Below are positions 5,363 to 7,116 of a stretch of 7,155 nucleotides of DNA, in pieces. Both the position numbers and the translations under genes were made by a program. The stretch is from Desulfuromonadales bacterium (lineage in GTDB: Bacteria; Desulfobacterota; Desulfuromonadia; Desulfuromonadales; UBA2294). A model generated the notes under the pieces. The model was not told where the DNA came from and did not search any database. It was given only the letters and a program-made list of their open reading frames with translations. Each line of letters starts with the position of its first letter. Position 1 is the first letter of the stretch. Location: assembly GCA_030591795.1 (NCBI GenBank), contig JAUVAJ010000089.1:1-7155 (forward strand), in the 5' to 3' direction.

Positions 5363-5407
5363 TGGAGCGGGAAACGGGATTCGAACCCGCGACCTTCAGC
5401 TTGGGAA
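5363..5407 (-). pseudogene. tRNA-Gly 3' fragment (att-like direct repeat copy)
   Basis: These 45 bases are identical to the 3' part of the intact tRNA-Gly gene at 7072-7116 and have the same orientation. In tRNA numbering they run from position 32, the first base of the anticodon loop, through the anticodon 3' stem, variable loop, T arm, acceptor 3' strand, discriminator and CCA. The 5' half is missing: the sequence beyond 5407 cannot form the anticodon 5' stem or the acceptor 5' strand, so no functional tRNA can be made. Exact identity that stops at the anticodon-loop edge is what a tyrosine-recombinase att site in a tRNA gene leaves behind. A truncated duplicate gene is the alternative. Confidence 0.85.
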
Positions 5408-5450
5408 TATGTGAAAATGAATGAGGTCAAGATTATCAACTGAGTCAGAA

Positions 5451-5487
5451 TATAAAAAGCGCCTGACGCAGAATCACGACAGGCGCT
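5451..5487 (-). terminator. Strong rho-independent terminator of the aminotransferase gene
   Basis: Read leftward, arms AGCGCCTG and CAGGCGCT (complements of 5480-5487 and 5458-5465) form a perfect eight-pair GC-rich stem around a 14-base interior. TTTTTATA follows directly. It lies 22 bases after the aminotransferase stop, so it ends that transcript before the tRNA fragment. Confidence 0.9.
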
Positions 5488-5509
5488 GCAAATCAATCAT
5501 ACGAGACAA

Positions 5510-6700
5510 TCAAAGAACAGATTTAATAGCTTCGCAGAGGCGATCCATATTGTCAGGCGTCATCCCGGCGACATTAATTCGGCCAGAGCCAACGATATAG
5601 ATGGAGTATTTCTCACGCAGCTGATCAACCTGCTCCTTGGTCAGACCGGAGAAACTGAACATACCGCGCTGATCAATGATCGACGAGAAATCTTGCTCAA
5701 CGCCCTTCTCTTTGAGAGTTTTGACGAATAGATGGCGCATCTCGTTGATTCGGTTACGGATGTCAGCGACCTCTTCATTCCACTGAGTCTTTAACCCCTT
5801 ATCACCCAGCACGGTTGCAACGATCTGGCCGCCATGTGAGGGAGGATTTGAATAGTTATAGCGGATTCTCAGCTTGACTTGGCTCATGACCGTTGCGGCC
5901 TGCTCATTACTATCAGCAACGACAGTCAGCGCTCCGGTTCTTTCACGGTAAAGGCCGAAGTTTTTCGAGAAGCTCGAACAAACCAGCATCTGCTTTACTT
6001 TTTTGGTTAACTCCAGCAAACCGGCACGGTCCTCTTCAACGCCGTCTGCTAGTCCTTGATAAGCAAAATCGACGAGAGGCAACACACCTTGTTCAGACAG
6101 CAGATCGCCGATCAGAGCCCACTGTTCAACGGTGGGATCGATGCCGGTTGGATTGTGACAGCAACCGTGCAGAAGGATCACATCCCCCTTCGGAATCTTT
6201 TTGATTGAAGCGCACATGGCGTCGAAATCAAGTCCATTGGTAGCAGGGTCGCGATAGTCGTACTTTTCACAAGTCAGACCGGCTACAGCAAAGATGGTGT
6301 TGTGGTTGGCCCAAGTCGGGTTACTCAGCCATAGCTTTGCCTCAGGGTGCACGGTGTGCAGATAGTCACCGGCAACCCGCAGGGCCCCCGTACCACCGGG
6401 ACATTGTGCGGTCGCGGCACGTTTAGTGGCGATGATTTCGTGTCCTTCACCGAACAGTAGTTCCTGGACCTGCGCACAGTATGCTGGATCACCGGTCATT
6501 GGCAGGTAACCCTTGGAGCTTTCCTGTTCAAGGATCAGTTTTTCAGCCTTTTTCACAGTACCCAGCACAGGCGTCTTGCCAGTGGAATCTTGATAAACGC
6601 CAACGGAGAGATTTATCTTGTCAGGGTTGGGGTCCGCTTTGAACATCTCGGTCAAGCCGAGAATCGGATCGGGTGGAGCAATTTGTACCTTCTCGAACAT
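5510..6700 (-). CDS. aspC: Aspartate/aromatic amino acid aminotransferase, class I (AspC/TyrB type)
   Basis: A 396-residue PLP enzyme that transfers amino groups between aspartate or aromatic amino acids and 2-oxoglutarate. Fold-type I residues are clear: N183 in HNPTG, D211 in DFAYQG (pairs with the PLP pyridine nitrogen), K246 in SSFSKNFGL (Schiff-base lysine) and R374 in GSGRINVAG (substrate carboxylate). Length and many blocks (DPILGL, GKTPVL, HGCCHNPTGIDPT, NYSNPP, GMFSFSGLTKEQV, NVAGMTPDNM) match gammaproteobacterial AspC; YLPM near residue 65 is more TyrB-like, so substrate range is uncertain. The frame is open further upstream, but the ATG at 6700 gives the family N-terminus MFEKVQIAPPDPILGL and has AAGGA about eight bases ahead. 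The gene is single, with its own terminator, between tRNA-Gly repeats. The AspC-like character hints at acquisition by transfer, which a tree would test. Confidence 0.95.
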   Translation of the reverse strand: MFEKVQIAPPDPILGLTEMFKADPNPDKINLSVGVYQDSTGKTPVLGTVKKAEKLILEQESSKGYLPMTGDPAYCAQVQELLFGEGHEIIATKRAATAQCPGGTGALRVAGDYLHTVHPEAKLWLSNPTWANHNTIFAVAGLTCEKYDYRDPATNGLDFDAMCASIKKIPKGDVILLHGCCHNPTGIDPTVEQWALIGDLLSEQGVLPLVDFAYQGLADGVEEDRAGLLELTKKVKQMLVCSSFSKNFGLYRERTGALTVVADSNEQAATVMSQVKLRIRYNYSNPPSHGGQIVATVLGDKGLKTQWNEEVADIRNRINEMRHLFVKTLKEKGVEQDFSSIIDQRGMFSFSGLTKEQVDQLREKYSIYIVGSGRINVAGMTPDNMDRLCEAIKSVL

Positions 6701-6789
6701 TGCAAATATCCTTTCTCTCTGGGAGAATTGCTTGTCGGTAATCACTAACGAAATTTGAACACATTCTAATAACAGGCAAACTCCAGCTT

Positions 6790-6818
6790 CTTCTACCTCA
6801 AGCAACTGCACTTGTCAA
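6790..6818 (-). promoter_or_regulatory. Sigma-70-type promoter of the aminotransferase gene
   Basis: Read leftward, a perfect -35 hexamer TTGACA (complement of 6813-6818) is followed after exactly 17 bases by TAGAAG (complement of 6790-6795), a 4-of-6 match to the -10. Transcription would start near 6783, leaving an untranslated leader of roughly 80 bases before the ATG at 6700. Confidence 0.6.
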
Positions 6819-7033
6819 ACCTAAACCTCACATCACCGAGGGTCACGATATTTAACCATGAATTAGCATTCCAAAATGGCAAGCGGCTGTTTTCGGTTTA
6901 CAAACTGGAGGATCTTCCAACGCATTGGATTCTCACAGAATTTGATCAATCAGTGACGACAGTACAAACCCCAGTTATTTGTTCATATGATATGAAGTGA
7001 AGAAATGAAGTATTTATTACAACACTAACAGCA

Positions 7034-7063
7034 AAGGGCTTAACCGAAAACGGCTAAGCCCTT
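7034..7063 (-). terminator. Terminator hairpin downstream of tRNA-Gly
   Basis: Read leftward, AAGGGCTTAGCCG, a TTTT loop and CGGTTAAGCCCTT form a 13-pair stem with one G-U pair, starting eight bases after the tRNA CCA. The T-tract behind it (CCCTTTGCTGTT) is weak. Read rightward the same hairpin is followed by TTGATTTT, so it may work in both directions. Confidence 0.75.
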
Positions 7064-7071
7064 GATTTTAC

Positions 7072-7116
7072 TGGAGCGGGAAACGGGATTCGAACCCGCG
7101 ACCTTCAGCTTGGGAA
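7072..7116 (-). repeat. Second copy of the 45-base direct repeat, inside tRNA-Gly
   Basis: This is the part of the intact tRNA-Gly (anticodon loop to CCA) that is repeated without mismatch at 5363-5407. The bases just outside differ on both sides: 7071 C versus 5362 T, and GCTGA versus TATGT from 7117 and 5408. Confidence 0.95.

Follow-up and report, generated by a model that had tools for sequence, protein, structure and literature searches.

The 7,155-nt stretch of Desulfuromonadales DNA analyzed here (the window) contains a glycine tRNA gene whose 3′ half is present twice. On the minus strand, tRNA-Gly is followed by an aromatic amino acid transaminase gene, a tRNA 3′ half, a terminator, yacG, queD, and queE, in this order. 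Past queE lie what we take to be coaD- and rsmD-like genes, an HD-domain (dGTPase-like) gene, and yhbY, names that go beyond the Pfam families matched. The two copies of the tRNA 3′ half are identical at 45 of 45 positions, with a start-to-start spacing of 1,709, and form the longest exact direct repeat of the window. This repeat is exact and far beyond chance: in 100 dinucleotide-preserving shuffles of the window, the longest repeat was at most 16, with a mean of 12.2. The coordinates of all features are collected in Table 1.

Table 1 Features of the tRNA-Gly(CCC) locus in the window
Feature	Position	Strand	Remarks
tRNA-Gly(CCC), intact	7072–7146 (Rfam 7075–7146)	−	Called by ARAGORN and Rfam; the window's single tRNA
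45-bp repeat copy inside the intact tRNA gene, anticodon loop to CCA	7072–7116	−	
Terminator hairpin and arm-like DNA (predicted), just inside attL	6996–7070	−	Aligned over 75 nt to L105
Likely transaminase promoter	6785–6828	−	TTGACA at 6813–6818, TAGAAG 17 nt on; function predicted
Aromatic amino acid transaminase gene, class I/II, PRK09257 type, 396 aa	5510–6700	−	
Hairpin behind the transaminase gene, probable terminator	5459–5486	−	Similar in L001, L003, L006
45-bp repeat copy, free-standing tRNA 3′ half	5363–5407	−	Start of homology with the empty site (G043)
Host's original tRNA-Gly terminator (as read here), now behind the 3′ fragment	5325–5354	−	Homologous to the terminator of G043 (L060)
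yacG, first host-flank gene	5035–5241	−	Synteny
queD, vertical marker in the host flank	4662–5030	−	

The anticodon lies at linear position 33 of the 75-nt tRNA-Gly gene, and the repeat covers linear positions 31–75; it thus opens with the anticodon loop, at canonical position 32, and closes with the CCA. ARAGORN and Rfam call a tRNA at the right copy, and neither calls one at the left. An earlier sequence-only reading of the window had described a perfect repeat with copies 1,709 bases apart, identity from the 5′ edge of the anticodon loop to the CCA, and one intact tRNA beside one 3′ fragment; our analysis bears out all three. Beyond the CCA, the two copies share weak similarity (8/11), and each is followed by a different terminator: the empty site described below has one similar to the left terminator but not to the right. 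We read the intact gene as attL, in which a 5′ half (7117–7146) probably belonging to the host is joined to a 3′ half (7072–7116) that would derive from an incoming element, and the free-standing copy as attR, presumably the host's original tRNA-Gly 3′ half.

Relatives of the window were reached via a transaminase search of genome contigs, which gave 29 loci. QueD has a match in 122 of the 147 relatives of genome G001, the best in genome G043 (84%, next 76%), and G043 is also nearest for the HD-domain dGTPase-like protein (83%, next 76%; 57 of 58 genomes matched). Judged by the window's own genes, G043 is thus the closest sampled relative. Its locus (L060) consists of a CCA-enzyme-like gene, tRNA-Gly (3645–3719), a terminator, yacG, and queD onward. 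The alignment of the window with G043 extends for 4.4 kb at 71% nucleotide identity, and its start coincides exactly with base 1 of the repeat. Removal of 5408–7116 gives a continuous alignment with G043 through the tRNA and terminator, and upstream of the tRNA 6 of 9 bases also match. The uninterrupted tRNA-Gly followed by terminator and yacG that the earlier reading proposed seeking in close relatives therefore exists, and an empty site bounded at the first base of the repeat supports the past integration into tRNA-Gly(CCC) for which that reading argued. We compared 34 loci, picked for a tRNA-Gly near yacG/queD or near a transaminase gene and not as a random sample; in 16 of 33, including G043 (the 34th is without a YacG match), yacG lies 330 bp or less from tRNA-Gly with no transaminase there. 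A CCA-adding/poly(A)-polymerase-like gene is found upstream of tRNA-Gly(CCC) in L060 (2297–3628) and at most compared tRNA-Gly loci; the two such proteins tested match named enzyme models below the curated cut-offs.

Four viral contigs (L147–L150) contain the same 45-mer. L147 (IMGVR_UViG_3300037722_000851) begins with the end of a CCA-enzyme-like gene and a full tRNA-Gly (399–473). It encodes a portal protein, head protease, capsid protein, terminase, and AlpA-like regulator, as well as a tyrosine integrase (8528–9745; Pfam Phage_integrase with an arm-binding domain), and has GCGAACA repeats near both ends and a tRNA fragment, identical at 45 of 45 positions, at 9941–9985. The stretch from 399 to 9985 is an integrated prophage with about 9.5 kb between the 45-bp repeats. 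None of the six L147 proteins searched is a tail protein, and the prophage is possibly a satellite. In L149, a phage tail gene is followed by a 49-nt tRNA 3′ piece (positions 27–75) and then yacG-queD-queE as in the window. L148 has a 45-nt tRNA fragment adjoining an integrase gene; in this region (1571–3512), the fragment is enclosed between the integrase gene and a truncated integrase C-terminus, an arrangement that suggests stacked islands. L150 has a full tRNA beside a phage-like gene and no CCA-enzyme match. The tRNA-Gly(CCC) gene between the CCA-adding-type enzyme gene and yacG is thus a phage attachment site in Desulfuromonadales-like bacteria.

A further insert is found in L007, a Desulfuromonas MAG, where 3.8 kb separates tRNA-Gly from a 3′ fragment that is 44/45 identical and starts at the same base as the window's. 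This independent insert (5898–9796; 3′ fragment, then transaminase gene) contains a class V aminotransferase, a rubrerythrin, and other genes, with no integrase found among them. Larger islands between the same repeats, the other comparison that the sequence-only reading had put forward, are therefore represented by the L147 prophage (45/45) and the L007 insert (44/45). An exact-pattern search for other free 3′ fragments, which misses L007 by its one mismatch, matched one of 136 genomes, the match being the full second tRNA of L001 with one base changed. The window shares with L147 the tRNA gene, the 45-bp core, a similar hairpin after the tRNA, and the CCA-enzyme-like gene upstream. However, L147 spans 9.5 kb between repeat starts and has head genes and a tyrosine integrase, whereas the insert has no phage family match and the window no GCGAACA repeats; the resemblance is one of site, not of membership.

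The DNA that follows the intact tRNA has counterparts behind tRNA genes in a prophage and in other genomes. Over 75 nt, it aligns with the DNA after tRNA-Gly in L105 with a local score of 76, the best of 500 shuffles reaching 30. Matches over shorter stretches, chiefly the hairpin, are found in L128 (score 61, shuffle maximum 31), L104 (52, 28), L147 (49, 26), L114 (47, 29), and L080 (46, 24); the match to L147 is the hairpin only, 44 nt. The same DNA is not similar to L060, L001, L005, or L007, with scores of 14–20 that fall within the shuffle range. The motif TGTTGTA occurs three times after tRNA-Gly in L105 and once in the window (7018–7024, at the attL end), with none at the attR end of the insert. 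Among viral contigs, only L147 combines the 45-bp core with the hairpin, and none combines the window hairpin with TGTTGTA.

A query of this DNA extended by 13 nt of tRNA has matches in 91 of 136 genomes (E up to 0.1), many at the tRNA itself and some elsewhere. We fetched 20 hairpin-match loci, five of them tRNA-Gly(CCC) loci, and scanned the other 15. All 15 have a tRNA gene at the match: Ser(CGA) in six, Gly(CCC) in six, and Thr, Val, and Gly(GCC) in one each. Short direct repeats follow the hairpin in several of these loci, and integrase-like sequence is present in L131 and L134, both at tRNA-Ser. Because it recurs after several tRNA types, together with short repeats and integrase-like sequence, the hairpin behaves like an element-borne terminator of rebuilt tRNA genes. 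We infer that integrative elements bring this hairpin as a terminator and that the repeats serve as arm sites; it is possibly a terminator module that such elements share. Beyond L147, the hairpin loci are candidate mobile elements. In L131, L134, L137–L141, L145, and L146, a closely similar hairpin lies directly after tRNA-Ser(CGA), -Thr(CGT), -Val(CAC), and -Gly(GCC) genes, often ahead of short direct repeats.

A search of the 1,709-bp insert for recombinase or phage families gave no match, and no ICE/IME genes were found in it. The one PHROG that the transaminase matches is unannotated and has the same fold, and eight further insert reading frames of 50 aa or more have no family match. When the L147 and L148 integrases were compared by tblastn with 151 sequences, including the window, matches were restricted to L147, L148, L131, and L134, so none falls in a tRNA-yacG interval. 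Likewise, no integrase was recognized in eight variable tRNA-yacG intervals (L007, L064, L070, L080–L083, L099), for which the starts of 52 proteins were inspected and nine were searched against Pfam. A crude motif search downstream of 15 further tRNA-Gly genes, three of which end at a contig end without a reading frame, detected no integrase beyond one chance flag in an implausible frame. As no recombinase was found in it, we read the insert as a remnant between att sites rather than as a complete island.

The transaminase is the only recognized cargo gene of the insert, and NCBIfam assigns it as an aromatic amino acid transaminase. Among the 147 relatives of G001, 32 have an orthologue with 81–98% identity, 79 have only distant matches (23–32% identity), and 36 have none. 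G043 has no orthologue (best match 28% identity, E 8e-4). In a DNA tree built from the window's gene and 22 fetched orthologues (23 in all), the window groups with L001 (100/100; 93.7% nucleotide identity), and this pair is nested in a group with L002, L003, and L004 (100/99). A tree of QueD and QueE with 36 rows, from which G006 and G008 were left out for missing genes, instead places the window with G043 (100/100), with G005 and G057 adjacent (93/84) and the group of G001 across a 100/100 branch. The conflict between the two trees indicates that the gene was transferred, and its phylogeny marks its ancestry as foreign. None of 11 candidate stretches in viral contigs was confirmed to encode this transaminase, in a search that detects close relatives only. 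In another setting, the same gene lies just upstream of tRNA-Gln(TTG) in L009, L010, L012–L020, L028, and L029; in L009, the CCA-type gene, tRNA-Gly, and yacG are found about 3 kb beyond the transaminase/tRNA-Gln pair.

The two flanks of the gene have different affinities. The 5′ flank resembles those of L007 (local score 70, shuffle maximum 31), L011 (70, 23), and L010 (61, 27), and not that of L001 (18, 24); the insert is thus a mosaic. The promoter motif is present in the window and in all seven other loci tested and is missing within 330 nt in all eight loci of the L001 group. In contrast, the 3′ flank aligns with that of L001 to within 7 nt of the tRNA fragment, securely to about 20 nt, and in L001 this alignment stops beside a second tRNA. 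A tRNA may therefore have stood at this place in the donor as well, with its 5′ half since lost.

Six genomes with close transaminases (G001, G002, G003, G004, G008, and G014) have the order tRNA-Gly, transaminase, full tRNA-Gly. The sequence-only reading had held that relatives with a complete second tRNA-Gly gene in the left position would favor ancient duplication over integration. Such relatives do occur, but the five that can be placed (G008 was dropped from the QueD and QueE tree) are not near the window. A version of the duplication idea that makes no use of an integrase would have an L001-like tRNA-transaminase-tRNA block enter by homologous recombination in tRNA-Gly; of the two full tRNA genes that resulted, the left one would then have lost its 5′ half by deletion. 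This scenario accounts for the 3′ flank, homologous to L001 almost up to the fragment near the second tRNA of L001, and has a partial parallel in L006, in which one tRNA-Gly copy has decayed. Yet it leaves the att-type DNA and promoter motif between tRNA and gene unaccounted for, the motif being present in none of the eight L001-group loci, and its deletion must have ended by chance at the anticodon loop, at the exact base that bounds the L007, L147, and L148 fragments. We regard it as very unlikely and weaker than integration. A plain decayed second tRNA, a reading of the left copy prompted by the full tRNAs of L001–L004 and L008, was demoted by the empty site of G043, the tree conflict, and the prophages at the site.

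Several of these loci have features of their own. In L001, L002, L003, L004, L008, and L064, the transaminase lies between two full tRNA-Gly(CCC) genes and the promoter motif is absent. L006 has a damaged first tRNA-Gly and an intact second one, the reverse of the window. A group II intron (Rfam group-II-D1D4-3 and -1) is found at 11474–11765 of L002, shortly after the second tRNA-Gly.

The trees also bear on the age of the insertion. G005 and G057 are sister to the window and G043 (93/84) and have tRNA-Gly, the transaminase, a terminator like that of the ancestral tRNA, and yacG. An old insertion common to these lineages could have been lost from G043 by recombination between the repeats, with the window gene later replaced by an L001-like copy, a two-step history that the mosaic 5′ flank would fit. 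This account overlaps in mechanism with the integration favored here and differs in timing. Against it, the DNA behind tRNA-Gly in G005 is not of the window's att type (as scored; the G057 spacer was judged by reading only), no tRNA 3′ fragment was found in G005 or G057, and the 3′ flank of the window is L001-like up to the fragment. We consider an old insertion unlikely.

Considering the repeat, the empty site, the foreign ancestry of the gene, the common att-type DNA, and a prophage on the same 45-bp core, the insert is very probably an att-flanked remnant of a tRNA-Gly(CCC)-specific integrative element, put in place by an integrase and since deprived of its recombinase. Specifically, an element with a tyrosine integrase of the L147 kind, specific for tRNA-Gly(CCC), would have recombined at the anticodon loop of the host gene. 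The element's own 45-bp 3′ half would have rebuilt the tRNA gene, and the host 3′ half with its terminator would have been displaced to the far end. The element's genes were presumably lost, or never present, leaving a 1,709-bp remnant (5408–7116) that keeps both att repeats, mobile-element-type DNA by the tRNA, and the transaminase with its putative promoter and terminator. The transaminase may have come between att sites through faulty excision of a prophage beside a transaminase-tRNA unit in an L001-like host.

The 1,709-bp unit can also be viewed as a minimal non-autonomous integrative cassette in which two full-length att cores enclose a single metabolic gene together with a promoter and terminator of its own. 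Such a unit would have moved in trans between Desulfuromonadales lineages by means of resident-phage integrases acting at tRNA-Gly(CCC). We hold this to be improbable; if true, it would help explain why the transaminase is repeatedly found beside tRNA-Gly(CCC).

The locus is organized like known tRNA-integrated islands, to which the insert adds a small and clearly resolved case. Islander (Hudson et al., PMC4383910) uses a tRNA gene and its fragment to mark the ends of an island whose attP restores the split gene, and describes 2,083 islands with an anticodon-centered site. Such tRNA fragments are treated as widespread (PMC9897764), and tandem islands have been described at ssrA in Dehalococcoides (PMC3146451). 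As in the islands outlined for Islander, an intact tRNA and a displaced 3′ fragment bound the window insert, with the crossover region at the anticodon loop; unlike them, the insert measures 1.7 kb and has one gene and no integrase. It also resembles a CIME, in which attL and attR are kept while integration and transfer genes are lost, in that the window retains both att repeats without recombinase or transfer genes. However, CIMEs are defined there as decayed ICEs or IMEs (PMC5704250), and the integrase-bearing element at this site is a prophage. Titles and abstract openings in one open-access library yielded nothing on the tRNA-Gly(CCC) site.

At this locus, the horizontal transfer of a single gene of amino acid metabolism into a tRNA gene can be followed, at single-base resolution on one side, and the case shows how gene islets without an integrase can be linked to an att specificity. 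Were such one-gene cassettes able to move in trans, ordinary genes of metabolism could spread in the manner of gene cassettes.
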